DNA from: Gloeobacter violaceus PCC 7421
GTDB taxonomy: Bacteria; Cyanobacteriota; Cyanobacteriia; Gloeobacterales; Gloeobacteraceae
Assembly (NCBI RefSeq): GCF_000011385.1
Contig: NC_005125.1
Coordinates: 682,001-746,000, forward strand
Direction: 5' to 3'
DNA: 64,000 bases
The notes under the pieces are model-generated. The model saw nothing but the letters and a program-made list of their open reading frames with translations, was not told the origin of the DNA and ran no database searches. Positions 5,464 through 31,014 of this stretch are shown here, piece by piece; position 1 is the stretch's first letter; the number at the start of each line of letters is the position of its first letter. Made by a program: the position numbers and the translations under genes.

Positions 5464-7968
5464 CTACGGGTAGAGGACATCGCGCACCAGCTCTCCTGTA
5501 CCGGTGTCGCGCAACTGGAGCTTTAACACGCCGCTATCCGGGTTGGCGAGCAGCACGGCCAGCTCTGGTCTGCCGTTGCCGTTGGTGTCGGCCAGGACCT
5601 CCAGGTCTCTGGTCAGGAAGTTTTTGTCGAAGGTGATCTGCCGGCTGGTTCCGCTTGCTGCTCCCTTGAGAATCACTTGATTGGACCACCCCTGGCCTGT
5701 CCCGAGCACGGCAATCTCGGGGCCGCCCTCGGTTGCTACCATCGCCATGGCCCGGGCGTACACCAGGCCGGGATAATCGAGGGTGGCAACCGTGGTGCCG
5801 GTCTTGCTGTCTTTGACCGTGACGCTTACAGGCGCGTTGCCCTGGAGGACGGCGATTTCAGGGGCGCCGTTGCCACTGATGTCCGGCAAGCCGACCAGGT
5901 CAGGCACACCCGTCACGCTCTGGAGGGTAACCGAACTCAGGGTTTGCTTGCTGAGCGGATCGAACACTTGATAGTACGGGTCGGCGGGCTGCTGCGAACC
6001 GGCCACTTCCTTGAGCCTTGAAAGCCAGAGCACTACGAATTCGGGTTTGCCGTTGTCGTTGATGTCCGGTATCCAGCCGAAGGTGGCCGGCTCCTGGGCA
6101 GCCAGTCCTCCCGCAGGCGGCGCACCGAGCGAAACGGTGGTCTTGCGGCCCGTTCTGGTGTCGAACAACTCGATGCGCCCCTCCTTGCCGGAGAGCACGG
6201 CAATTTCGGGGTAGCCGTTGCCGCCGAGGTCGGGATAGACATCCAGTTTGCCGACATCGCTCGACGGACGCACTTCGCGGATCAGCTCGCCACTGAGGGA
6301 GTCGCGCACCTCGATGAGCCGACCGCTCTTATCGGCGCTCAGGCTCTGCACCGCCACCTCGTAGGCACCGTTGCCGTTGATGTCCGGCAGGGCAATCGCT
6401 TCGACCTCCGGGAAGAGATCTTCCCGGTAAGTCATTTGGCCCAGCAACCCACCGTCGCGAGCGGATTTGCGGTAGACGCGGTACCGGTTGGGCCAGGCGG
6501 TCATGTCCGTGCGCAAAACGGCCGGGTTGTTCTCGCCCACTTTTTCAAGCAAGTTGTTGCCGAAGGAGGGACTGTGCACCAGCAGGTAGGGTGCCATGCC
6601 CTTGGCGCTGTAGCGCATCTGAGCGAGGGTCGCCTGCAGTTCCGCCACCTGCGCGCCGTAATCCGCCACACCCACGGCATTGTCCAGTTCGTAAGGATCG
6701 TCGATCAGGTTATAGAGTTCCTGCTCCCCCGCCAGGTTTTCCATATATTTCCAGGCGGTTGAGCGCACGCCCGCGTGGGTGGGGGTCAGTTGCCAGCCCT
6801 CGAACAAGAACTGCTCGCGCCAGGAGACTGCCTGTCCTTTGAGAATCGGCAGCAGGCTGCGGCCGTCCACGGTCGCGGGAATCGGGATACCGGCCGCCTC
6901 GGCGATCGTGGCGGTCAGATCCATGTTGAGCACCAGCAACTCCTCCTGCCTGGCCGCGGTGGACACGCCCGGGAAGGAAACGACCATCGGTACGCGCAGG
7001 CTCTCCTCGTAGCTGCAGCCTTTTTCCCACCAGCGGTGCTCTCCCCAGGTCAAACCGTTGTCCGAGGTGAAGATGACCAGGGTGTTCTCCCGCTGCCCGG
7101 TGCTCTCGAGGGCCTGGAGGATCGATTCGACGCCGTCGTCGACCGCCAGCAGCATCTCCAGATAGGCCTGGCGTTCTTTGTCGTAATCGGTCTGGGTCTG
7201 GGGGCTGGCCGGGCGCAGCTTCTGCACCCAGGTGGGCTTGTCTAAGACATCCTGTTCGTTGTAGTTGGGCGGGCGCCAGGGGGGGATATCGGCGTAGCGC
7301 CCGGCGTGCCTTGGTGCGGGGGTGTAGGGAGCATGGGGAGCAAACGGTGCTAGAAACAGGAAAAAAGGTTTGTCGCTTGCTGCCGAATTGGTGATGAAGG
7401 CTACGGCCTTCTGGGTCAGCACGTCGGTGGAGTAGTTGGATTCGCTGCGCCCGTAGTCTTCGATGGTGCCGTTGGCGTTGATCCGGTAATTGTAGTAACC
7501 GGCCAACTGAAAAGTCTGCCACTCGTCCCACCCGGGGGGCGTGTAGAACGCCGAGTAGCTGTAGCCGTTGAAGTATTTACCAAATAGACCGGTACGGTAG
7601 CCGCTCTCCTGCAGCCAGACCGGGAGCGTCGAAGCGTCGTAGAAGGCGAGTGCTCCGCCAAAGGGCGCGTCGTTGCCCAGCACACCGTGGTTGTGCGGGT
7701 AGCGGCCGGTCAGGATCGTGGCGCGCGAGGGACAGCACAGCGATTGGCCTGCGAAGGCGTTGGTGAAGGTGACCCCCTGAGAAGCGAGCTGCGACTGGAG
7801 TTTGGGCATGTACGCGAGGGTGTTCCATGCCTGGTCGTCGGTGACGATGAGCACGACATTGGGCGGCGGGGCAGCGATGGCGGCGGCGGTGCTGAAGAAA
7901 ATCCCAATGGCGGCGGTCGCGGCAGAAGCGAGGGCGGATGGCGCGGCGGTGGGCGGGCTGCTGTTCAT
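5464..7968 (-). CDS. Exported sulfatase fused to C-terminal FG-GAP repeats
   Basis: An 834-residue exported sulfatase. A signal peptide (about residues 1-33) is followed by the alkaline-phosphatase-fold sulfatase domain to about residue 480: metal-binding IVTDDQAWNT, the formylglycine site CCPSRATILTG (first Cys of CPSR is the one oxidised), GKYFNGY, APHAPYTP and TSDNGLTWGEHRW. The closest family is the glucosamine-6-sulfatase-like group. Residues from about 500 to 834 form seven or so FG-GAP/VCBS-type repeats with DxNxNG calcium loops (DINGNGAYEVAV, DLGGNGYPEIAV, DISGNGAPEIAV). The enzyme should remove sulfate from a polysaccharide or similar substrate outside the cytoplasmic membrane, with the repeats acting as a binding propeller. 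It is the last gene of an eight-gene run, 57 bp after the preceding FG-GAP gene. No formylglycine-generating enzyme gene is seen in the window. Confidence 0.93.
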   Translation of the reverse strand: MNSSPPTAAPSALASAATAAIGIFFSTAAAIAAPPPNVVLIVTDDQAWNTLAYMPKLQSQLASQGVTFTNAFAGQSLCCPSRATILTGRYPHNHGVLGNDAPFGGALAFYDASTLPVWLQESGYRTGLFGKYFNGYSYSAFYTPPGWDEWQTFQLAGYYNYRINANGTIEDYGRSESNYSTDVLTQKAVAFITNSAASDKPFFLFLAPFAPHAPYTPAPRHAGRYADIPPWRPPNYNEQDVLDKPTWVQKLRPASPQTQTDYDKERQAYLEMLLAVDDGVESILQALESTGQRENTLVIFTSDNGLTWGEHRWWEKGCSYEESLRVPMVVSFPGVSTAARQEELLVLNMDLTATIAEAAGIPIPATVDGRSLLPILKGQAVSWREQFLFEGWQLTPTHAGVRSTAWKYMENLAGEQELYNLIDDPYELDNAVGVADYGAQVAELQATLAQMRYSAKGMAPYLLVHSPSFGNNLLEKVGENNPAVLRTDMTAWPNRYRVYRKSARDGGLLGQMTYREDLFPEVEAIALPDINGNGAYEVAVQSLSADKSGRLIEVRDSLSGELIREVRPSSDVGKLDVYPDLGGNGYPEIAVLSGKEGRIELFDTRTGRKTTVSLGAPPAGGLAAQEPATFGWIPDINDNGKPEFVVLWLSRLKEVAGSQQPADPYYQVFDPLSKQTLSSVTLQSVTGVPDLVGLPDISGNGAPEIAVLQGNAPVSVTVKDSKTGTTVATLDYPGLVYARAMAMVATEGGPEIAVLGTGQGWSNQVILKGAASGTSRQITFDKNFLTRDLEVLADTNGNGRPELAVLLANPDSGVLKLQLRDTGTGELVRDVLYP

Positions 7969-8025
7969 CGGTGGTCACCTCGTTGCAATGGAAGGGTCAG
8001 ATCAAACGGATTTGTGTTTGCGCAT

Positions 8026-9483
8026 TTAAGATGTCACTCGGAAGCGGCGGGCGCTGGTCGCTGTGCCGGCCGGAGTGGTGACGGCGATCGGACCGCTGGT
8101 CGCTCCCGCAGGCACGATGGCCGTGATCTGTGTGCCTGAGATCACGGTGAATGCGGCGCTCGCACCGCCAAAGGTCACGGCGGTGGTGCCGGTGAAGCCC
8201 GTGCCGGTAATTGTCACCTCGGTGCCGACCGGCCCGCGCCGGGGGGTAATGGAGTCGATTACAGGCAGCACCACCCCGTCGCCGGTGTTGATGAGTACCC
8301 CGACGTTGCTGGCAAAGCCGTTGGCGACCGCCAGGTCGAGATCGCCGTCCCCGTCGAAGTCGCCTGCCTCCACACCGGTGGCACCGTCGCCACCGGTGGC
8401 AAAGGTCAAGGCGGCGGTGAAGCCGCCGCTGCCGTTCCCCGGCAGCACCGAGACGTTGCCGGCATCCCGACGATTGGCGGTGACCAGATCCAAATCGCCG
8501 TTCTCGTCGAGATCGCCGATGGCAAGCGCCACGGGATAATCGCCTACCGCGAAGTTGCGGGTGGCGCCGAAGGTGCCGTTGCCGTTGCCCAACATCACCG
8601 AGACGTTGTCGGCAAACCGGTTGACCGCGGTCAGATCCAGGTCGCCGTCCCCATCGAGATCGCCCATGCCCACCGCGGAGGTACCGCTCGCAGCGGCGTA
8701 ATTGCGGGGTGCTGCGAAGGTACCGTTGCCGTTGTTCAAAAGCACCGAGACGTTGGCGGAGAAAAGGTTGCCCACCACCAGGTCCGGATCGCTGTCCTCG
8801 TCGAGGTCCACGATGACAACCGACGAGGGGCCGGGGGGAAGCACAAGGTTGCGGGGAGCCCCGAACGTGCCGTTGCCGTTATTTGACAGCAGCGAGATGT
8901 TTTCGGAATACCGGTTGGTGCTGACCAGGTCGAGATCGCCGTCGCCGTCGAGATCGCCCGCCGCCACGGCAGCAGGAAAGGTGCCGTTCACCGGATAGTT
9001 CACAGCGGCGGCAAAGGTACCGTCGCCGTTGCCCCGCAACACCGAGAGATTGCCCGAACCGCCGTTGGCGGTGATCGCGTCGAGGTCGCCGTCGCCGTTG
9101 AGATCGGCGAGGGTGGCGGCGCGGGGGCTGCTGCCCACCGGATAGTTTTGCAGGTCGCCGAAGGTGCCGTCGCCGCCGCCCAGCAGTGCCGAGAGCGTGT
9201 TGTTACCGATATTGGCGGTCACAATATCGATTCGGCCGTCTCCATCGAGATCGCCGATAGCCAGACCGCGGGGGGTAGTCCCCACCCCAAAGGTTTGCGC
9301 GGGGGCAAACCCCACCTGCGCCTGAACCGGTGCGGCGCTCAGCGCCACCGTCGCGGCCAATCCGAAGCCGACGAGCCGGACCGCCTGGCTACGCAGGCAA
9401 ACCATTTTGAGAATCGTGGGCAGTACTTTCTGGAAGGGGGTGCAGGCAGCGGAAGAGGCGCCTGCGGGCAGTGAAGCGTTCAT
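8026..9483 (-). CDS. Exported FG-GAP/VCBS repeat protein with C-terminal IPT/TIG domain
   Basis: A 485-residue exported protein. The hydrophobic core of the signal peptide is VRLVGFGLAATVALSAAP, cut after VQAQ. Seven repeats of about 45 residues follow, each with a DLDGDGDLDL-type calcium loop and an NVSVLxGNGxGTF strand, building a seven-bladed propeller. Residues from about 400 form an IPT/TIG immunoglobulin-like domain (DSITPRRGPVGTEVTITGTG). It probably binds a carbohydrate or protein ligand in the periplasm or at the surface; no catalytic motif is seen. It is a tandem duplicate of the gene just upstream, 41 bp away. The signal peptide is preceded by about 35 extra residues; an internal ATG at 9405 would remove most of them. 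Confidence 0.9.
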   Translation of the reverse strand: MNASLPAGASSAACTPFQKVLPTILKMVCLRSQAVRLVGFGLAATVALSAAPVQAQVGFAPAQTFGVGTTPRGLAIGDLDGDGRIDIVTANIGNNTLSALLGGGDGTFGDLQNYPVGSSPRAATLADLNGDGDLDAITANGGSGNLSVLRGNGDGTFAAAVNYPVNGTFPAAVAAGDLDGDGDLDLVSTNRYSENISLLSNNGNGTFGAPRNLVLPPGPSSVVIVDLDEDSDPDLVVGNLFSANVSVLLNNGNGTFAAPRNYAAASGTSAVGMGDLDGDGDLDLTAVNRFADNVSVMLGNGNGTFGATRNFAVGDYPVALAIGDLDENGDLDLVTANRRDAGNVSVLPGNGSGGFTAALTFATGGDGATGVEAGDFDGDGDLDLAVANGFASNVGVLINTGDGVVLPVIDSITPRRGPVGTEVTITGTGFTGTTAVTFGGASAAFTVISGTQITAIVPAGATSGPIAVTTPAGTATSARRFRVTS

Positions 9484-9524
9484 GGGTAAGAACCTTGTGT
9501 GGGGAAATTTCGGTTGGTGGCCGC

Positions 9525-10931
9525 TCAGGAGGTGATCCGGAAGCGGCGGGTGCTGGTGTTGGTGCCGGCCGGAGTGGTGACGGCGATCGGGCCGCTGGCG
9601 GCACCGGCGGGCACGATGGCGGTGATCTGTGTGCCTGAGACCACGGTGAATTCGGCACTCACGCCGCCAAAGGTCACAGCGGTGGCGCCGGTGAAGCCCG
9701 TCCCGGTGATTGTCACCTCGGTGCCGACCGACCCGCTCCGGGGAGCTATCGATTCGATCGAAGGTGCTGCCGTCCCGTCGCCGGTGTTGAGGAGCACCCC
9801 GACGTTGCTGGCGGTGCCGTTGGCGACGGCCACGTCCAGGTCGCCGTCCTCGTCGAGATCGCCCACCCCGATGTAGGTGGCCCCTTCGCCGCCGGCCGGG
9901 AAGATCTGGGTAGCCGAAAAATTCGCGCTCCCATTGTTGATGAGCACCTCGACGTTGCTCGCGGGCCTGCGGTTGGAGGTGATCAGATCCAAATCGCCGT
10001 CCTTGTCGAGATCGCCCATGGCGATGGCCACGGGATAATCGCCCACCACGAAGTTCTGGGCCGGCCCGAAGCTGCCGGTCCCGTCGCCCAGCATCACCGA
10101 GACCTTATCGGCAATGCGGCTGGTCGCAGCCATATCCAGATCGCCGTCCCCGTTGAAATCGCCCACGACAACGCCGGAGGTACCGCCCGCGGCGGCGAAG
10201 TTCCGGGCGGCGGCGAAGGTGCCTTTGCCGTCGTTCAACAGCACCGAGACGCTGGCTGAGAAGATGTTGGCCACCACCAGGTCCGGATCGCCATCCTCGT
10301 CGATGTCCGCGAAGATGACTTCTGCGGGACCGGCAGGCAGAGGAAGACTCCTGGGTATGCCGAAGGTGCCGTTGCCGTTGTTTTTAAATAGCGAGATGTT
10401 TGCGGAGTATCGGTTGGCACTCACCAGATCGAGATCGCCGTCGCCGTCGAGATCGCCCGCTGCGACGCCGGTCGGAAAGCTGCCGTCCACCAGATAATTC
10501 CGGGCGGCACCGAAGGTGCCGTTGCCGTTGCCCGACAGCACCGAGATGTTGTCGGCGAATCGATTGGCCGCGGCCAGATCGAGATCGCCGTCCCCGTCGA
10601 AATCGCCCGTGGCCACCGCGCAGGTACCACCGGCGGCGGCGAAGTTCCGGGCCGCCGCGAAGGTGCCGTCACCGCCGCCCAGCAGTGCCGAGAGCGTGTT
10701 GTTGCCGATATTGGCGGTGACCAGGTCGAGGTCGCCGTCCCCGTTGATGTCACCGATGGCCAGGGCGCGGGGCGTCGTCTCGACGCTGAAAGTTTGCGCA
10801 GGAGCGAATTCCACCTGCGCCTGAACCGGTGCGGCGCTCAGCGCCACCGTCGCGGCCAACCCGAAGCCGACGAGCCGCACCTCCCTGCTGCGCAGGGTCG
10901 GGAGCAGCTTCGAAAAGATCTTGAGAAGCAT
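9525..10931 (-). CDS. Exported FG-GAP/VCBS repeat protein with IPT/TIG domain (tandem paralogue)
   Basis: The paralogue of the next gene downstream, 468 residues from the ATG at 10931. That start is chosen because a GGGA ribosome site precedes it and the signal peptide then begins normally (MLLKIFSKLL, hydrophobic core VGFGLAATVALSAAP). A longer frame reaching 10985 would overlap the upstream hydrolase gene. Seven FG-GAP repeats with DxDGDGDLDL loops fill residues 45-380 and an IPT/TIG domain closes the protein. The DNA encoding the signal peptide and the TIG domain is nearly the same in both copies, while the middle blades differ more, pointing to duplication followed by divergence of the binding surface. 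Confidence 0.9.
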   Translation of the reverse strand: MLLKIFSKLLPTLRSREVRLVGFGLAATVALSAAPVQAQVEFAPAQTFSVETTPRALAIGDINGDGDLDLVTANIGNNTLSALLGGGDGTFAAARNFAAAGGTCAVATGDFDGDGDLDLAAANRFADNISVLSGNGNGTFGAARNYLVDGSFPTGVAAGDLDGDGDLDLVSANRYSANISLFKNNGNGTFGIPRSLPLPAGPAEVIFADIDEDGDPDLVVANIFSASVSVLLNDGKGTFAAARNFAAAGGTSGVVVGDFNGDGDLDMAATSRIADKVSVMLGDGTGSFGPAQNFVVGDYPVAIAMGDLDKDGDLDLITSNRRPASNVEVLINNGSANFSATQIFPAGGEGATYIGVGDLDEDGDLDVAVANGTASNVGVLLNTGDGTAAPSIESIAPRSGSVGTEVTITGTGFTGATAVTFGGVSAEFTVVSGTQITAIVPAGAASGPIAVTTPAGTNTSTRRFRITS

Positions 10932-10969
10932 AGTAAATTCCCGATGAAACGACTGTTGTGAACCGAGCC

Positions 10970-11971
10970 TTAAAAACAGGCCCACTCCCGCGCGTAGGCA
11001 AAGTCGCGTTCGTTGGCGGGAGCAGTGTGGGGTTTATCGGTAGGAGCGGTGAGTTCTACCCAGTGGTGGTTGGGATTCGATTCGCTCGTGGATTTTTGCA
11101 GACCGAGGGTCGCGTAGTTGGCTACGATTCCCGCGTAGTATTGATCACCTTGGTGCACCACCCCCCGAATGTGCTCGACGGGCGTTTGCCAGGATTGCTC
11201 GCCCACCCAGTGGGCGGAGACGGTCTCGACCGAGCCTCTGGGTGGGTCGGCCTGCGTGGTCGAATCGACCGGGGAGGCCAGAAAACACAAACGCTCGACG
11301 GTTTGATCGCGGGCGAGGTACCCGGCGTGTCCTCCGCCCTGGCTGCTGCCCCCGAGGCGCAGCTTGCGCCAGTTGATGGTCTTGCCGCTGATCGCGGCCG
11401 GAAAGGGAAAGTCCGCAGGCAGGTAACGCTTGAGAAAGCGGATCAGCGCGTCGAGGCGGTAGACGATGCTGTTGGCCTGATCGACCTGCACCTCCGCAGC
11501 GACCGGTGTGCCGTAGACAATCTCTTCGCGAACCGGTCCGTAGCAGCTGCTGCGGTTGTTGCAGAGGCTGCCGACCGGATCGGCGTTGGCATGGGCAAGC
11601 GAGATGACCAGATGATTTTGGGCCATCCCCTCCTCCATGCTCTGGCCGGGGGTGAACACCCCCCGGTCGGGATCGAACGGTTTGCCGCCCGAGCCCAACA
11701 GGTACACAAACACCCCTTGCAATTGGTCGGGATGTTCGGGAATGCCGACGACATGGTAGCCGTAGCCTCTGCCGGAACCGTCGTCGATAGCACGGTCGGT
11801 GAGGCTCGGTTGAATGGCGCAGACGACACCGGCGGGCACGTCGAGCCGGCTGTCGGTCCTATCCGGACAGACGGCCGCCGGTTGCGCCTGCGCCGGGGCA
11901 AGCCATAGGACGGTGCCTACCGATAAACTGCTCAAAGTAAACTGAACGCACGGGTGGATACAGCGCTGCAT
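10970..11971 (-). CDS. Exported alpha/beta-hydrolase-like protein (copy B)
   Basis: A 333-residue exported protein with a signal peptide ending at PAQAQ. The motif RLGGSSQGGGHAGYLA at about residue 220 is a nucleophile elbow (G-x-S-Q-G-G) of the alpha/beta-hydrolase fold, and strand-helix alternation around it agrees. It resembles the BPSS1187-type hydrolase-like family known mainly from genome annotation; that family name is from memory and less certain than the fold. The Ser of GSSQG is the likely nucleophile; the His may be one of the C-terminal NHHW or KPHTAPANERD residues. Paired Cys residues (CNNRSSC) suggest a disulfide. Substrate is unknown; an ester or lipid is the usual choice for such folds. 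It pairs with copy A in the same operon. Confidence 0.82.
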   Translation of the reverse strand: MQRCIHPCVQFTLSSLSVGTVLWLAPAQAQPAAVCPDRTDSRLDVPAGVVCAIQPSLTDRAIDDGSGRGYGYHVVGIPEHPDQLQGVFVYLLGSGGKPFDPDRGVFTPGQSMEEGMAQNHLVISLAHANADPVGSLCNNRSSCYGPVREEIVYGTPVAAEVQVDQANSIVYRLDALIRFLKRYLPADFPFPAAISGKTINWRKLRLGGSSQGGGHAGYLARDQTVERLCFLASPVDSTTQADPPRGSVETVSAHWVGEQSWQTPVEHIRGVVHQGDQYYAGIVANYATLGLQKSTSESNPNHHWVELTAPTDKPHTAPANERDFAYAREWACF

Positions 11972-12001
11972 AGATACTCCTCGGTGGATAAAACGAATCA
12001 G

Positions 12002-13177
12002 CTACGGCTGGGTTGGCCCAAGTCCGGTGTCGACGCGGTAGATCGAGGTGGTGCCGGGGACGGAGATGCTCGTGAAGTAGATATACGGTCCTTTGTCGGT
12101 GATAAACACCTCTGGATCGAGGCGCACCCGCACCTCGGGTGCGCTCAGCTGCCGGTAGAGGGGTGTGGCCGGATCGACACCCACAAGCCAGAGGTCGGAA
12201 GGGGTGATGAGCTTCTCCTCGCTGGTGCCGCTCACGGTCGAAGTCGCCATCGAAATGTACGATTTGCCGTTGTGCACAAAGATTTCCGGAGACAGGATGT
12301 ACGGTCCGGCTGATGGGGGCCTTAGCGCGTGGATCTTCTGCCAGAGGCCATCGATCTTGCGGTAAACGTCGATGCGCAGTTCGGCCGCGACGGCAAACAA
12401 CACGTATTCGTTGTTGAACTCCGGTGCCTGCCACATGATGCTGGCGGATTTGGAGACGGGGTCGAAGGTGAGTTGCTCGTACACCTTGGTGTCGATGTTG
12501 TACAGGTGCACCTGCGAGATGCCCTGGGCATCCAGCTTGTTGACCAGCATGGCGCGCAGCCCCGGTACCCAGCGGCCCGGAAAGAGGGTGCCTGTCAGAA
12601 CCTCCTCGCTGGCCGGGTCGTCGAGTTTGCGCCAGTAATTGCGCACCTGGACGATCGACTCACTATCGAAGTGGTAAGCGTAGGAAATGCGCGGTTCGGC
12701 ATCAGCGGCGTCGGAGCTGCCGAAGGGCAAATAGCGGTTGCTGCCGCCGGGCAGGACTTCGCCAATCCAGTCGGTGCCGTCGAAGCGGGCGCGGCCGAGG
12801 GCAAAGCGACCCTCGCTGTCGTATTTGGTATAGACGATCTGGGCTCCAGCGCTCGAAAACGCCCACTCGGGTCCGTTGCGGGTCAGTTTCGGCGGCACCG
12901 CCCCGGTGTCCACCAGTACGCCTTTGCCGTTGCGCGGCGAGAATCGGCCGCTTCTGCGGCTGACCTCGCCTATCCAGACATTGCCCTCGTCGTCGATCCA
13001 GCAGAAGCGGCCCCCTGCCGGATCGAACTCCGGATCGCTGATGCCCACTTGCGGGCCTGCAATCAGCACGTCTTCACCGACCTGGGCCAGGGTGGGCGGC
13101 TGCCAGGACAGGACCGTGCAGCCGAGGACCAGCCAGAACATCGCGTACCCACTAAATCCGGTGAACAGAAAATGCAT
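12002..13177 (-). CDS. Exported TolB-like beta-propeller protein
   Basis: A 391-residue exported protein. The ATG at 13177 is chosen because AGGAG lies upstream and a signal peptide starts at once (MHFLFTGFSGYAMFWLVLG, cut after TLAQ). The body has repeated strand patterns such as VGISDPEFDPAGGRFCWIDD, NVWIGEV and GPEWAFSSAGAQIVYTKYD, typical of TolB/WD40-like PD40 propellers. It lacks catalytic motifs, so a binding or scaffold role is likely. A close paralogue with the same order of motifs stands alone at 29860-31014. It is 30 bp upstream of hydrolase copy B and 63 bp downstream of the SBBP gene in the operon. Confidence 0.85.
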   Translation of the reverse strand: MHFLFTGFSGYAMFWLVLGCTVLSWQPPTLAQVGEDVLIAGPQVGISDPEFDPAGGRFCWIDDEGNVWIGEVSRRSGRFSPRNGKGVLVDTGAVPPKLTRNGPEWAFSSAGAQIVYTKYDSEGRFALGRARFDGTDWIGEVLPGGSNRYLPFGSSDAADAEPRISYAYHFDSESIVQVRNYWRKLDDPASEEVLTGTLFPGRWVPGLRAMLVNKLDAQGISQVHLYNIDTKVYEQLTFDPVSKSASIMWQAPEFNNEYVLFAVAAELRIDVYRKIDGLWQKIHALRPPSAGPYILSPEIFVHNGKSYISMATSTVSGTSEEKLITPSDLWLVGVDPATPLYRQLSAPEVRVRLDPEVFITDKGPYIYFTSISVPGTTSIYRVDTGLGPTQP

Positions 13178-13240
13178 CGTTACTGACTCCTGGAGGGAAA
13201 GAAGCGAACGGGGGCGATCCAAACCGAACGACAAATCCGG

Positions 13241-14770
13241 CTAGCGGGCAAATCCCTGGGAGTTGCCGATTTTGCCGACCACGGCGTCCTCGAAGCCGGC
13301 GCTGGTGAGGGTGGTATCGCCCCATTGGGCGGTGCCCTCGAAAAATCCGCAGTAGATATAGTTGCCCAGGTTGTCGGCGGCCACGGCGTAGGAATAATCG
13401 TTTCCCGAACCGCCCGTGGGCGTGCTGAGCGAGAGCGGGGCACCGCTCGCTCCGTCGAGTAAGCCGATCAAAAAGTCGGTGCCGCCCTGGGAACGCACCC
13501 GCGTCGAACCGAAGGTGAACCGGCCGCTATAGGCCCCGGCGATGATCACATTGCCGCCGATGTCGAAGTCCACTTCGGTACCCTCGTCGTCGCGACGGCC
13601 GCCGAAGCTGCGGACCCACACCAGATCGCCGCCGCCGGTCAGCCGGGCGACAAAGATATCCTCGCCGCCTGCGGAGGTGAGGACGGTGGAGGTGCCCAGG
13701 ACGTTGAAACTGTTTTCAAACTTGCCCCCAAGCACGAGATCGCCGCCGGCCCCGGCCACCCCGCGCACGACATCGTCGCCGGTGCCGCCGATGGAGCGCG
13801 CCCACAGCCAGTCGCCGCCGGGGCCGAGGCGACCGATAAACGCGTCGGCCCCCCCCGCCGCGGTCAGGCTCGTCGAGCCGTGGCGCGTCGTGCCCTCCAA
13901 CTGGCCGCCCACAAAGATATCCCCGGTGCCGTCCCTGGCCAGGCCGAGCGCCCGCGCCTGATTGGTCGCGCCGGGGGTCTGCCCTTCGGTGCGCTGCACC
14001 CACTGGAAGTTGCCGTCGCTGTCGTACTTGACGATAAATCCGTCGAAATCGGCCGTCACCCCCACCGGCGGGGTGCCGTCGAAACTGACCCGGGTCGTCT
14101 GGTCGCCGCCAAAGGTTCCGGAGATGATCACAGCCGTGGCATCGACTACACACTCCGAGCCCAGCACCGGGATGGCCAGGTTCGAGACGACCTGCGCCCC
14201 CGGCGTCACATTGCCGGAGATGTACCGTCCGCTCGCCCTGGCCCAGAGCACCTCGCCGTCCGGGTTGAGTTTGACGGTGAAGGCGTCGGGAGCCAGCCTG
14301 CGGCTGTTGGGGGGCGGCACCAGGTTGGAGGTGAGCGTTGTGCCGCCGAAGCGAACGGTGCCGGTAAATAGGCCGGTGACGTAGACATTGCCCACCGCAT
14401 CCACGCAGTTGGCCAGCGCCTGATCTTGAAGGGTGGAGCCGAAGGACCTGGCCCAAAGCAGCGTGCCCTCCGGGCTATATTTGGCCACGGCGATGTCCTC
14501 TTCACCGGCACTGGTGAGCGTCGTGCTGGCGTTTGAAAATGTGGCGGTGTCGCCAAAGGTGCCGCTCAGATAGATGTTCCCGGCATCATCGGTATCGACC
14601 CCGCGCCAGATCTCGGTGGGGATCCCCCCCTCCCGGTAGGTGGCGCTGCCCATCCGTTGCGCCCAGGTGGTGGGCTGGGCGTGCAGAGGGCCGTAAATGG
14701 CCGCTCCCAGCAGCAAAGTGCCGCCGAGGGAGAGGATCAACGAAAGGCGCAGCATTTTGGGTGTCAGCAT
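13241..14770 (-). CDS. Exported SBBP-repeat beta-propeller protein
   Basis: A 509-residue exported protein starting at the ATG at 14770, behind AGGAAA. The signal peptide (MLTPKMLRLSLILSLGGTLL) ends near HAQ. The body holds at least seven SBBP repeats of about 55 residues: W-x-R-S-x-G-G, then a DD-x-G-N-x-Y-hydrophobic-S-G segment, then TLTSAGxEDxFVAK. Examples are SAGEEDIAVAKYSPEGTLLW and SAGGEDIFVARLTGGGDLVW. These form a propeller and no catalytic motif is visible. The gene lies 28 bp after the smaller sulfatase and is very likely co-transcribed with it. A role in binding the sulfatase substrate is inferred from context only. Confidence 0.87.
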   Translation of the reverse strand: MLTPKMLRLSLILSLGGTLLLGAAIYGPLHAQPTTWAQRMGSATYREGGIPTEIWRGVDTDDAGNIYLSGTFGDTATFSNASTTLTSAGEEDIAVAKYSPEGTLLWARSFGSTLQDQALANCVDAVGNVYVTGLFTGTVRFGGTTLTSNLVPPPNSRRLAPDAFTVKLNPDGEVLWARASGRYISGNVTPGAQVVSNLAIPVLGSECVVDATAVIISGTFGGDQTTRVSFDGTPPVGVTADFDGFIVKYDSDGNFQWVQRTEGQTPGATNQARALGLARDGTGDIFVGGQLEGTTRHGSTSLTAAGGADAFIGRLGPGGDWLWARSIGGTGDDVVRGVAGAGGDLVLGGKFENSFNVLGTSTVLTSAGGEDIFVARLTGGGDLVWVRSFGGRRDDEGTEVDFDIGGNVIIAGAYSGRFTFGSTRVRSQGGTDFLIGLLDGASGAPLSLSTPTGGSGNDYSYAVAADNLGNYIYCGFFEGTAQWGDTTLTSAGFEDAVVGKIGNSQGFAR

Positions 14771-14798
14771 GATCAAATTTCCTGTGTGTCCGTTGAAT

Positions 14799-16346
14799 TT
14801 ATTGGTCTTCGAGTTCTCGGCAGGTGGTGCCGCTGCACAGACGCAGCTCAGAGGCGAGCGCACCGAGGGCGGCGGCTGTGTCGGGTTGGTCAAGGTGCCG
14901 GCTTTCGAGTTGGGCGGGATCGGCGTCTAGCGCGTACAGTTCTCGCTCGCCGTTGTCGAACTGGATAAAGACCGTATTGGGGTACTCGGTGTCGCGGCTG
15001 CCGGTGCGCACACCGGTGCTGTTGCCGGAACCGCGTACGTCGCCGTGTTCCAGCAAAAAGCGCTTGCGCCACCCCGGCAGTTCGGGATTGGCCAACAGCG
15101 GCACCAGCGACCGGCCGTCCACTGTCAACGTCGGGGTAGCCCCCGCCCACGCGGCGATGGTCGGGGCCAGATCGATGTTGACCGCCAGTTGCTCGATAAG
15201 GCGCAGGGCCGTGCTGCCCGGCAACCGCACGACTAGAGGCACCCGGATGGATTCCTCGTAAATCACGTTCTTGCCGGTCAGGCGGTGCTGGCCGAACAGG
15301 TAGCCGTTGTCCGAAGTAAAAACCACGATCGTGTTGCCCAGGACGCCGCGGCGCTCGAGGGCGGCGATCAGCGAGGCCGTCAGATCGTCGACGGCGCGCA
15401 GCGATTCGATCTGGTCGCGGTAGATGTTGCCCAAACAGTCGATACTGCGCTCGCTGAGCAGGGGGGCCGCCTGCACCCAGGTCGGTTTGTCTGTGACGTC
15501 CTGTTCATTGAAGGCCGTCCCCTGGGGCAGCGGTACCTGGCCGGCGCTGCCCTGGTGGCGCGGTGCCGGGCGAATCGAGCGCAGGCTGTTGGGAAACAGA
15601 CGACAGGAAGAAACGCCGGGGGCAACTTCAAAGTGCGGGGCCACGGGGGCCACGGTCAAAAAGAAGGGTGCTGTGGCGGCCGCATCGACAAACGCCACCG
15701 CCCGCTCAGCTAGAACGTCCGTCTGGTACTCCTCCGGCGGTTCGGCCGGATCTTCGCCGTAGTCAATCAGCGTGCCGTTGTCATTGAGCACGTAGTTGTA
15801 CATGGTGCCGGTGATCAGTGCCTGCCAGTCGTCCCAGCCCGGCGGGACATAGGTCGGATCGTCCAGGGGGCTGCGCCGGTTGCGGTCGGACCCGTAGCCG
15901 TTCAGGTACTTGCCGACATACCCGGTCCGGTAGCCTGCCGCGTCCAGCCAGGTGGCGAGCGTCGAGCGATCGTCGAAGGCCGAAATAGACCCGTCCGGCG
16001 GGGTATTGCTCTCGACGCCATGGTTGTGGGTGTACTGCCCGGTCAAAAAAGTCGCCCGCGAAGGACAACACAGCGACTGGGTGGTGAAGGACTGTCTGAA
16101 GCGGGTGCCCTGATTGACGAGCCGACTGGCGATCGTCGGCAAAAATCCCCGGCCCGATGCCTCGTCGAACACCTGCTCAGAGAGATCGTCGGTCATGATC
16201 ACCACGACATTGGGGGGCTGCTGGGCAACGGCCGCCGTCGACATCAGTGCCAGGCCCAACCACAAGCACACGGCAAACCGGGCAAGCCCGGCCCAGGCAA
16301 GCGACCCCGGCTTTGGACGGTGTTGAAAAGTGCAGGTTGTTTTCAT
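14799..16346 (-). CDS. Exported sulfatase
   Basis: A 515-residue exported arylsulfatase-family enzyme. A signal peptide with core LARFAVCLWLGLALMSTAAV precedes the metal site VVVIMTDDLSE and the formylglycine motif CCPSRATFLTGQYTHNHGV; GKYLNGYG and TSDNGYLFGQHRL complete the active site. It is related to the larger sulfatase at 5464-7968 but lacks the FG-GAP tail. Its start codon overlaps the stop of hydrolase copy A (ATGA), so the two are translationally coupled. The likely reaction is removal of sulfate from a carbohydrate or aryl sulfate outside the cytoplasmic membrane. Maturation needs a formylglycine-generating enzyme that must be encoded elsewhere. Confidence 0.93.
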   Translation of the reverse strand: MKTTCTFQHRPKPGSLAWAGLARFAVCLWLGLALMSTAAVAQQPPNVVVIMTDDLSEQVFDEASGRGFLPTIASRLVNQGTRFRQSFTTQSLCCPSRATFLTGQYTHNHGVESNTPPDGSISAFDDRSTLATWLDAAGYRTGYVGKYLNGYGSDRNRRSPLDDPTYVPPGWDDWQALITGTMYNYVLNDNGTLIDYGEDPAEPPEEYQTDVLAERAVAFVDAAATAPFFLTVAPVAPHFEVAPGVSSCRLFPNSLRSIRPAPRHQGSAGQVPLPQGTAFNEQDVTDKPTWVQAAPLLSERSIDCLGNIYRDQIESLRAVDDLTASLIAALERRGVLGNTIVVFTSDNGYLFGQHRLTGKNVIYEESIRVPLVVRLPGSTALRLIEQLAVNIDLAPTIAAWAGATPTLTVDGRSLVPLLANPELPGWRKRFLLEHGDVRGSGNSTGVRTGSRDTEYPNTVFIQFDNGERELYALDADPAQLESRHLDQPDTAAALGALASELRLCSGTTCRELEDQ

Positions 16347-17362
16347 AGCGAATCCTCAGAAGCGAAACAGGCCCAGGCGCGGGCATCGGCCAGATCCCGG
16401 TGGTTGGCGGGGGAGGTGTGGGGCTTGTTGGTCGGTATGTTCACCACCAACCAGTCGTTGTTGGGGGCGAGGGTGCTGGTGGAGCGCCTGAGCCCCAGGG
16501 CGCGGAAGTTGGTGGTGATGCTCTCGTAGCTGCCGTCCTGGCGGTGGACCACCCCTTTGAGCCGCTCGGAGGGGGTCTGCCAACCCTCCTGGGCGATCCA
16601 TTCCACAGCCGAGTAACGGGTCGTGCTCTCGGTGGTCACAGCGACGGTGTCCACCGGCGAAGCCAGAAAGCAGACTCCCCCGGTGGGGTAGTCGTGGGCG
16701 ATGTATCCGGCGTGTCCTCCCCCCTGGCTGCTGCCGCCCAGGCGCATCGCCTGCCAATCGATGGCGGCGCCGCGGATGGCCTGCGGCATGACCACCTCGC
16801 CGGGCATGTTCGCTTTGAGGTAGGCCACAAGGGCCGAGAGGCGGTGCATAATGCTCTGCTCAGGAGAAATTTCCACTGCCGCCGAGATCGGTAAGCCGTA
16901 GATAATTTCCTGCCGGGCCGGACCGTAACACCCACCGTCATTGCCGCACAGCTCGGCGACCGCCACATCGTTGGGATAGGCAAGCTGCAGGACCACAAAG
17001 CCCTGGGCGATCCCCTCCTCGACGATCGAAAGGCTGGGAAGGCTCTGGCTGACCGGGTCGTAGGGCTTGCCGTTGGTGCCCATCAAGTAGAAAAACACGC
17101 CCCGGGCGGCGTCGATGTCATTGGGCAGACCGACGACGTGATAGCCGTAACCCAGGTTGGTTGTACCCCGGTCGGCAATCTCGGGATCGGTGAGGCTGGG
17201 CCGAATGACACAGACCACCCCGGCGGCGGTGTCGTGTTGGGCGTGTGCCCCGCTCGGGCACAGGGCGGTAGCAGCCTGAGCCGACATAGACTGCAGGGAG
17301 CATGCCAGAGCGGCCCCGACCAGCGATGCAAAAGTGCGCACGCGGCATGTGCGGATATTCAT
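16343..17362 (-). CDS. Exported alpha/beta-hydrolase-like protein (copy A)
   Basis: First gene of the eight-gene run, 339 residues from the ATG at 17362, which follows AGGAG. The signal peptide is MNIRTCRVRTFASLVGAALA, cut after MSAQA. The nucleophile elbow RLGGSSQGGGHAGYIAHD is the same as in copy B, as are AAGVVCVIRPSLTD, YGYHVVGLPN, CYGPARQEIIYG and the C-terminal NKPHTSPANHRDLADARAWACF. Four cysteines fall at the same places in both copies. The start avoids a longer, unconvincing N-terminal extension. Substrate unknown. The pairing of one such hydrolase with one sulfatase occurs twice in the operon. Confidence 0.83.
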   Translation of the reverse strand: MNIRTCRVRTFASLVGAALACSLQSMSAQAATALCPSGAHAQHDTAAGVVCVIRPSLTDPEIADRGTTNLGYGYHVVGLPNDIDAARGVFFYLMGTNGKPYDPVSQSLPSLSIVEEGIAQGFVVLQLAYPNDVAVAELCGNDGGCYGPARQEIIYGLPISAAVEISPEQSIMHRLSALVAYLKANMPGEVVMPQAIRGAAIDWQAMRLGGSSQGGGHAGYIAHDYPTGGVCFLASPVDTVAVTTESTTRYSAVEWIAQEGWQTPSERLKGVVHRQDGSYESITTNFRALGLRRSTSTLAPNNDWLVVNIPTNKPHTSPANHRDLADARAWACFASEDSL

Positions 17363-18308
17363 AATCGAACTCCTGAGAACCGACGAAAACGGGTCGTAGG
17401 TTGCGGCTGTGACAGAGCAAGCCAAGCGAATCCGCCCGCTTCCCAACCAATGGGGCGGAGTAAAATGCGAACCTAGAGCCCACCCATAACGGCCGTGCGG
17501 GCTTCAGCCGCAATCGACCACAACGTGGGGTGCAGGGCAGGGAAGGCCGAGATTACGCAAACCGTCAGGCCTCAACCCGCGAACATCACAGTCGCTCGAA
17601 AATCAGAACCTATGGCAGCTTGCAGTACCTGGCAATGGCACTGCACGCCTGCCCTAAATTTAGGGCAGGCGGCGCTTTCCAGGGGAAAAACTCTTTGCGT
17701 TCGGTGCAGCCGAACTGCAACGGAACCAAAAACACAGATCTTTGTACATAATGCATCACTCACAAACGTGGAAGGGAATGAACCTGGGGAAACCGCAACC
17801 ATCTGGGCACTTCTCTCACTTATAGGTTGATGCATAACCGGCTATGCAGCTAGCGTCTAATCGCTTAGGAACAAAGACGGATAACCATCAACCTCGGGGC
17901 AGTTCTCTCGGTGGCCCCCCGTGGGCTCTTGAAAGGGAAGCGAACCCATGGTTTTGCGTAGACACTCTAAAATTGGCCTTTGCGCAATAGAAAAAGCCAA
18001 AGGCGTTGCTTGAATTGCGGACTAAGTAACCGGTGATGCGATACTCGCCATTGCACGGGCGACCCCTGGACTTTGGATTTGCGCAAGTACGCACGGCACT
18101 TTCAGGGGTTTTCGAAAGAAAGCAGAAACCAGAATTCCACCAAAGCCTAACCTTGACCTCTCCAACCTATAGTAGACACCCCAAATCAACTATGCAGCTG
18201 TTTAGTAAAGTGATGTTTTGATAATGTCAGCCCACCTGGATAAATGGGCGCAAGCATGGATCTTATTCTGTTATTTCTGAAACAGAATGCAAACCGCTAC
18301 GTGGTCTT
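17363..18308. other. Non-coding stretch between the sulfatase operon and ftsX
   Basis: About 950 bp with no convincing gene on either strand. It is visibly richer in A and T than the flanks. It should hold the promoter of the minus-strand operon starting at 17362 (not located with confidence). It contains a 24-bp perfect palindrome at 17647, a smaller inverted repeat at 18265-18288 (ATTCTGTT, 8-nt spacer, AACAGAAT), and two copies of CTATGCAGCT near 17842 and 18189. I looked for hallmarks of rnpB, tmRNA and the SRP RNA and found none. It could hide a small RNA or the worn remains of an insertion. Confidence 0.5.
17647..17670. promoter_or_regulatory. 24-bp perfect palindrome, operator-like
   Basis: The half-site GCCTGCCCTAAA is followed directly by its exact reverse complement, with no loop. 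No T-run follows on either strand, so a terminator is unlikely. It lies 285 bp upstream of the first gene of the sulfatase operon. A dimeric regulator site is the simplest reading. Confidence 0.45.
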
Positions 18309-29747: not shown

Positions 29748-29859
29748 GCAGACCAGACCACTATAGCCAGAACGAACGTCGCCCTGGCGACTGCCGCCCC
29801 TTCCCGGTTGTGATAGCAATACTTTATGCTCAAACGATTCTACGTTTTTGGATCCTTCC

Positions 29860-31014
29860 ATGCATAAAAAGCTGTGTGTGTGTGCCTTGACCCTTCTGGC
29901 TCCCCTGAGCTTTGCAGGGGCCTGGCACCTGTCCCTGCCCGCCGCCGCCCAGACCGGGCCGACCGATGTGCTGGTCTCCGGTCCGAGCGCAGTGGTCGAT
30001 CCGGAATTCGACCAACAATTCGCGCGCTTCACCTGGAACGACGACAAGGGCAACGTCTGGATCGGCACGGTCGATCCGGCCACGGGCGATTTTTTGCCGC
30101 CTGCCGGCAACAACACTCTGGTGGACACCGGCGCGGTGCCGGTCGCCGTCTCCGGCAACGGTCCTGAGTGGGTTTACACCGCCGCCGGTCCCCAAATCGT
30201 CTACACCAAGTACGGAACCAACGGCCGCATTGCCGTCGCCCGCGCCCAGGAGAACGGCTCGGGCTGGGCGGGCGGGATCATCGAAAACGGCGAGAACCGC
30301 ACCTTTCCCATCGGCAGCCAGGACCGCCGGGATCCGGCCCCCAGGCTTTCCTATGTCGGACGCAACAGTGCCGGCAAGCAGGTGACCCTCTGGCGCGAAC
30401 TCGACGATGCCGCCTCCGAGGTAGAGGTTCCCAATGCCCTGCCGCCGGGCGGACGCTGGGTACCCGGCAGGCGCGAACTGGTCTTCATCGGCAAAGCCGG
30501 CCGGGGCCGACAGGCGTTTCGCTACGACGTCGATAGCCGACAACTCGAACAGCTCACTGACGACGCCGGCCAAAAATTCAATATCCTCATGTGGCAGGCC
30601 CCGGAGTTCGACGATGAGTACGTGTTTTTTACGCTGACCGACGAGACCTCGATCGGGGTATACCGCAAAATCGAAGGCACCTGGACGAAGATCAACACGC
30701 TCAAGCCGCCCGCGGCGGGCCAGTATCTCTGGTCGCCGGAAGTGTTTGTGCACAACGGCAAGTCCTACATTTTCATGGTGACTTCAACCAGCCGCGATCA
30801 AAATAGCCGCACTGTGCCGACCGATATCTGGATGGCGGGTATCGAGCCGGATGCGCCCTTCTACCGGCAGGTAAGCGATACGACCCTCAAAGTGCGCAAA
30901 GATCCGGAAGTATTCATCACCGCCCAGGGACCGTATATCTATTACCTTGCTTTGCCGGATCCGCAGACGAGTACGATCTACCGGGCGGACACAGGGCTGG
31001 GGGCCGCCCGGTAA
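29860..31014 (+). CDS. Exported TolB-like beta-propeller protein (paralogue of 12002-13177)
   Basis: A 384-residue exported protein with a signal peptide (MHKKLCVCALTLLAPLSFAG) cut near AAAQ. Its motif order is the same as in the operon protein: VSGPSAVVDPEFDQQFARF, NVWIGTVDPATG, LVDTGAVPV, GPEWVYTAAGPQIVYTKYG and the end DPEVFITAQGPYIYY. The ATG at 29860 is used; a TTG four codons upstream is less likely. It stands alone between tRNA-Pro and a small gene on the other strand. No enzyme motif is seen; a binding propeller is inferred. Confidence 0.83.
   Translation: MHKKLCVCALTLLAPLSFAGAWHLSLPAAAQTGPTDVLVSGPSAVVDPEFDQQFARFTWNDDKGNVWIGTVDPATGDFLPPAGNNTLVDTGAVPVAVSGNGPEWVYTAAGPQIVYTKYGTNGRIAVARAQENGSGWAGGIIENGENRTFPIGSQDRRDPAPRLSYVGRNSAGKQVTLWRELDDAASEVEVPNALPPGGRWVPGRRELVFIGKAGRGRQAFRYDVDSRQLEQLTDDAGQKFNILMWQAPEFDDEYVFFTLTDETSIGVYRKIEGTWTKINTLKPPAAGQYLWSPEVFVHNGKSYIFMVTSTSRDQNSRTVPTDIWMAGIEPDAPFYRQVSDTTLKVRKDPEVFITAQGPYIYYLALPDPQTSTIYRADTGLGAAR

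Follow-up and report, generated by a model that had tools for sequence, protein, structure and literature searches.

What would eight adjacent genes for exported sulfatases, hydrolases and propeller-like proteins do for a cyanobacterium, and are the sulfatases among them likely to be active? The question is raised by a gene run at positions 5464-17362 of the window studied here, which comprises the 64,000 nucleotides at 682001-746000 of the complete 4,659,019-base genome of Gloeobacter violaceus PCC 7421 (G000). The run encodes two S1-type sulfatases (S1 and S2), two BPSS1187-family hydrolase-like proteins (H1 and H2), two FG-GAP propellers (FG1 and FG2), an SBBP-type protein and a TolB-like protein (Table 1). 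The eight genes probably form a single exported operon, and, with about even confidence, we predict it to be an "envelope grooming" system that acts on the cell's own sulfated envelope glycan, with a sulfatase arm that is probably unmatured in this strain. The genomes compared include those recorded as Aphanocapsa lilacina HA4352-LM1 (G001) and Candidatus Cyanaurora vandensis LV9 (G008), along with G002, which is presumably G. kilaueensis, and G003, which we take to be G. morelensis; cyanobacterial counts out of 386 or 292 genomes include G. violaceus itself. The titles and abstracts of the literature on Gloeobacter sulfatases yielded nothing on the eight-gene locus.

Organization and conservation of the gene run

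The eight open reading frames (ORFs), all on the minus strand, tile the run in the transcription order H2, S2, SBBP-type, TolB-like, H1, FG2, FG1 and S1. Successive junctions measure -4 (an ATGA overlap), 28, 63, 30, 38, 41 and 57 bp, and the ATG of H2 is preceded by the Shine-Dalgarno sequence AGGAG. A Sec-like N-terminal signal is recovered in all eight proteins, versus 16 of the 45 other ORFs of the window, by a simple heuristic that is neither SignalP nor another trained predictor and was set generously in favor of the other ORFs; the N-termini of S1 and the TolB-like protein are devoid of basic residues. The recomputed gaps and these starts agree with the first-pass annotation, which had described eight genes with signal peptides throughout, separated by 28-63 bp or an ATGA overlap, and family searches with the eight proteins bear out its statement that the run is free of transporters, regulators and formylglycine enzymes. 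Its suggestion to look for the same gene order in other genomes also bore fruit: the order recurs in the G. morelensis and A. lilacina genomes, each with one FG-GAP gene fewer, with the downstream flanking genes conserved in both and the upstream ones in G. morelensis. Against the latter, protein identity is 88-98% for six of the seven genes (98% for the SBBP-type protein) and 81% for FG1. The ratio of nonsynonymous to synonymous substitution rates (Ka/Ks) is 0.09-0.26 for same-named genes (S1 0.14, S2 0.16), and by this measure most genes of the run are under purifying selection; FG2 is without a counterpart in G. morelensis and gives a Ka/Ks of 0.40 against its single FG gene.

That these are chance neighbors, i.e., independent genes with promoters of their own, is highly improbable, given that all seven junctions are short, with an ATGA overlap among them, and that the order is kept in three genomes. 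Nor is there an excess within the run of terminator-like sites (11 versus 11.5 expected from shuffled sequence) or of promoter-like sites (1 versus 2.1), the latter by a scan that covers cyanobacterial promoters poorly; this coverage and the 63-bp gap, which is large enough for a promoter, speak for independent expression. No consensus promoter was found in the stretch upstream of H2.

Table 1. Features of the window, with the genes of the run in transcription order (positions are those of the window; for each gene of the run the higher coordinate is the likeliest start; aa, amino acids)
Feature	Coordinates	Strand	Evidence and remarks
Upstream stretch without convincing gene, ~950 bp	17363..18308	-	sequence, ORF list; expected place of operon promoter
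H2, predicted exported BPSS1187-family alpha/beta-hydrolase-like protein, 339 aa	16343..17362	-	NF047580 178 bits vs cut-off 125; first gene of run
S2, predicted exported S1-type sulfatase, 515 aa	14799..16346	-	CCPSRATFLTG; PF00884 1.3e-51, 5g2v 3.7e-36
SBBP-type beta-propeller protein, 509 aa	13241..14770	-	PF06739 2.1e-5 (weak); LipL53-like SBBP family 1e-22, below its cut-off
TolB-like predicted exported protein, 391 aa, uncharacterized family	12002..13177	-	7mx5 TolB E 0.07 (PDB profile)
H1, second BPSS1187-family hydrolase-like protein, 333 aa	10970..11971	-	NF047580 141 bits vs cut-off 125
FG2, predicted exported FG-GAP propeller with C-terminal TIG	9525..10931	-	PF13517 5.7e-62, eight stretches; TIG 2.3e-11
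FG1, predicted exported FG-GAP propeller with C-terminal TIG	8026..9483	-	PF13517 2e-63, eight stretches; 70% identical to FG2
S1, predicted exported S1-type sulfatase fused to C-terminal FG-GAP-like region, 834 aa	5464..7968	-	CCPSRATILTG; PF00884 3.1e-57, FG-GAP_3 1.2e-5, 5g2v 1e-54; last gene of run
TolB-like paralog, unlinked	29848..31014	+	49% identical; same window

The sulfatases and their maturation

Both S1 and S2 combine the PF00884 fold with the CxPSR modification motif. The metal-binding and catalytic residues (D, D, C, R, K, H, D, N and K), with roles as generally assigned in sulfatases, are all present in an alignment of S1 and S2 with S3, the unlinked third sulfatase of the genome, and in that of S1 with 5g2v; all three proteins are full length with complete active-site residues. 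The closest solved structure for S1 and S2 is 5g2v, named as an N-acetylglucosamine (GlcNAc)-6-sulfatase, and their sequences support an assignment as intact Cys-type S1 sulfatases nearest to the GlcNAc-6-sulfatases. The S1_11 subfamily, which is directed at 6-O-sulfated GlcNAc or L-galactose, features a recognition triad of His plus Asp/Arg (PMC10154612). In the tree, S2 and an unlinked sulfatase at 3.63 Mb form a pair (support 100/100), whereas Fischerella and Rubrobacter (plasmid) sequences belong to a clade that excludes S1 (support 90/93). The view that such a system is unusual in a cyanobacterium holds for the S2-type sulfatase subfamily (2/292 cyanobacterial genomes at E<=1e-40), the BPSS1187-type hydrolase (3/386) and the TolB-like family (2/386), but not for PF00884 proteins at large, which are present in 19 of 30 relatives.

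Cys-type S1 sulfatases require a formylglycine made by the formylglycine-generating enzyme (FGE) or by anSME (PMC10154612). A PF03781 search of the G. violaceus genome pointed to two places. One of these (G000:C1:2948284-2948748; L084:16284-16748) is an FGE remnant that shares 70-71% identity with the intact enzyme of A. lilacina; it has one in-frame stop and is without the residues after 212 of 393, including the FLCAPGYCRRYR catalytic cysteine pair. The other, at 1.75 Mb, has no such pair and adjoins an EgtD-like gene, for which reasons it was rejected as an FGE and is read as EgtB. The genome yielded no intact FGE, the A. lilacina FGE as query giving nothing beyond the remnant at E<=1e-20, and no protein passes the curated anSME cut-off of 349 bits, the best reaching 53. 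The remnant runs into an apparent truncated glyoxalase-like gene beside katG; the katG-adjacent stretch of A. lilacina (L083) carries a sulfatase, a TonB-receptor-like protein and sulfonate-uptake-like genes instead.

The sulfatases of G. violaceus are either unmatured or matured by something unrecognized. S1 and S2 may be inactive in this strain, because there is only a truncated FGE remnant and no anSME above the threshold. An alternative, which we regard as tentative and somewhat unlikely, holds that the sulfatases are being lost as inactive passengers after FGE decay, with the hydrolases and propeller proteins as the working part. Beyond the missing maturases, it would account for S1 being already a fragment in A. 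lilacina (L026:8774-9247; 98% identity to S1 over ~103 aligned residues); it sits poorly with the three full-length sulfatases and their complete active-site residues, and with the rate of S2, which is not raised on the G. violaceus branch (8 versus 10 changes, no excess).

Maturation of S1 and S2 by an unrecognized formylglycine-generating system, which is decidedly unlikely, would explain why the Cys-type motifs are intact in a genome without an intact FGE or anSME. Among the sulfatase loci read, those of ten genomes (G. violaceus included) encode a Cys-type motif; an intact FGE match is present in seven of these genomes and absent in G. violaceus, G005 (a draft) and G007 (a single contig), so that Cys-type sulfatases without an FGE match are seen in two further relatives. 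In G001 and G003 the FGE is intact. With the enzyme encoded in seven other relatives that have Cys-type sulfatases, the usual FGE route is the rule. Further, no candidate maturase was identified, and the residual activity in FGE-less Mycobacterium tuberculosis has been ascribed to other sulfatase types (PMC3141025). The G007 sulfatase, with the motif CSPSR, is encoded at G007:C1:3904301-3905278 (L038), in a genome with no anSME above the cut-off.

The hydrolases and their propeller-like partners

In an eight-sequence alignment of the BPSS1187-type hydrolases, S212, D238, H315 and six Cys are invariant, with S212 also invariant across 27 sequences, and the nucleophile elbow GGxSQGGG is kept in the eight aligned relatives, Glu replacing Gln in one. 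By motif, these proteins thus display the GxSxG elbow, Asp and His of predicted alpha/beta-hydrolases. When the 27-sequence profile was run against the PDB, the best matches were cutinase/PETase-type hydrolases, weak and local (E 0.005). H1 and H2 are not grouped together in the tree, and H1 is nearer to a paralog at 1.31 Mb (53%) than to H2 (~48%). The trees and the closer unlinked paralogs do not support a local block duplication behind H1/H2 or S1/S2; hence, from the duplicated modules of the first-pass annotation only FG1 and FG2 stand, which are probably tandem copies because they are 70% identical and adjacent. Plasmid searches with H2 as the query returned no match.

Three of the four propellers originally counted are retained, namely FG1, FG2 and the SBBP-type protein. 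Several calcium-site-like DxDxDG motifs are found in both FG1 and FG2, the latter with 7 motif matches, and S1 adds a fifth FG-GAP-like region at its C-terminus. The remaining one, the 12002-13177 protein, matches no Pfam or NCBIfam family, Pfam TolB included; its label derives from a sub-threshold likeness to TolB (7mx5, E 0.07), one of its paralogs resembles GH43, also below threshold (E 0.002), and a propeller fold is only weakly indicated. Elsewhere in the genome, five TolB-like paralogs form an array on both strands (G000:C1 about 4444850-4451180; L122), adjoining a glycosyltransferase and a PAF-acetylhydrolase-like protein, with uvrA directly after.

The association between the hydrolase and the TolB-like protein extends beyond this run. 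In the presumed G. kilaueensis, a single TIG-fused hydrolase has five TolB-like genes and an SBBP-type gene on its flanks; in a Burkholderiales metagenome-assembled genome (MAG; L100), hydrolase and TolB-like gene are 20 bp apart and convergent; and in a Saprospiraceae MAG (L109) both lie on one strand, separated by 6 bp, and the TolB-like match is weak (2.5e-9). No sulfatase match was found in the 19 kb read around the G. kilaueensis hydrolase or in the stretches examined around the pair in the two MAGs. Because the pairing recurs without sulfatases in other lineages, it looks older, which suggests that the hydrolase and the TolB-like protein form a core unit to which the sulfatases would have been a later addition in the Gloeobacter lineage. 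That the pair constitutes an undescribed cross-phylum exported system, to which Gloeobacter added sulfatases that mature independently of FGE and anSME by some unknown route, is a very doubtful proposition. Candidatus Cyanaurora vandensis displays BPSS1187-type hydrolases with 11 and 9 TIG domains (L028:4517-8197 and 8516-11863).

Predicted function and closest known systems

If the operon serves in envelope grooming, as we favor, its proteins would either exit the cell or be retained in the periplasm or sheath. There, the sulfatases would remove sugar sulfate esters from the cell's own sulfated exopolysaccharide, with environmental glycans as the alternative substrate, a step predicted from their nearest relatives, which cut 6-O-sulfated GlcNAc or L-galactose. 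The BPSS1187 hydrolases would act on this material as well, by cleaving acyl or other carboxyl esters, and the propeller and TIG proteins would serve as glycan binders or keep the enzymes attached to the glycan; the sulfatase arm, with only the truncated FGE remnant left, is probably unmatured in this strain. Self-made sulfated compounds are possible because the genome encodes sulfotransferases, with five PF13469 and five PF00685 matches at E<=0.001 that partly overlap and include a few weak ones. According to a published proposal (PMC9723792), cyanobacterial sulfatases bearing export signals modify the envelopes of the cells that make them.

The sulfotransferases and this proposal lead us to favor grooming of the envelope glycan over scavenging of sulfur or carbon, in which sulfate and acyl groups would be stripped from foreign sulfated organics for sulfate or sugar uptake. 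Scavenging, which we consider unlikely, would fit the predicted export of the sulfatases and an island of A. lilacina that groups other sulfatases of this genome with a TonB-receptor-like protein and apparent sulfonate-uptake genes. It is at odds with a run that lacks a transporter and a regulator, with its neighbors (DNA polymerase I, an OprB porin on the opposite strand and FtsX/ABC genes) and with the existence of the hydrolase/TolB-like core without sulfatases. The surface system for sulfated compounds envisaged at the outset therefore stands in part: there is a probable exported operon with two real S1 sulfatases, but a sulfate theme for the whole operon is weakened by the recurrence of hydrolase and TolB-like protein without a sulfatase and by the S1 fragment in A. 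lilacina.

Several points weigh against the grooming operon as we picture it. The signal peptide calls are heuristic, no glycoside hydrolase, lyase or sugar transporter was found within the run, and the purifying selection may predate the loss of FGE. The alpha/beta-hydrolase fold of the BPSS1187 family is weakly indicated by motif conservation and the cutinase-type match, and linkage to a TolB-like gene outside Gloeobacter amounts to 2 of 26 non-cyanobacterial hydrolase loci, one convergent and the other with the weak match. Finally, an unrecognized maturation route is possible because G007, too, has a Cys-type sulfatase without an FGE match.

If the grooming reading is true, the operon would provide a genetic handle on sulfated-envelope modification in a thylakoid-less, early-branching cyanobacterium. 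For the uncharacterized BPSS1187 hydrolases, a partner that recurs is now at hand, and FGE-independent maturation becomes directly testable on intact Cys-type sulfatases that lack a recognizable maturase.

Among known systems, the S1_11 carbohydrate sulfatases (BT4656, PDB 5g2v) resemble S1 and S2 in PF00884, an SGSH_C-like C-terminus and the active-site pattern DD...CxPSR...K...H...DN...K, although S1 and S2 are distant relatives, S1 has the added FG-GAP-like region and no FGE was found in the genome. H1 and H2 both score above the cut-off of the BPSS1187 family (NF047580), whose literature, judged by titles and abstracts, mostly concerns the use of the gene as a PCR target in detecting Burkholderia pseudomallei; here, two copies share one operon with sulfatases, and relatives have TIG-fused forms. 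Polysaccharide utilization loci of Bacteroidota likewise combine exported S1 sulfatases with accessory binding proteins, but the run has no SusC/SusD, glycosidase, lyase or regulator. Its assignment as such a locus was rejected, with no SusC/SusD pair or glycan-degrading enzymes among the eight genes and the flanking genes scanned. A plasmid cluster of Hymenobacter canadensis (L133) displays, all in a row, two clear and one weak TolB-like protein, an SBBP-like protein and two alpha/beta-hydrolase-like proteins; it differs in hydrolases that do not match H1 or H2, in type IX secretion system sorting tails and in having no sulfatase. On a Rubrobacter tropicus plasmid (L134, 3929-9050), a relative of S2 is likewise part of an overlapping gene run, but its partners there are a sulfatase-like protein and an arylsulfotransferase.

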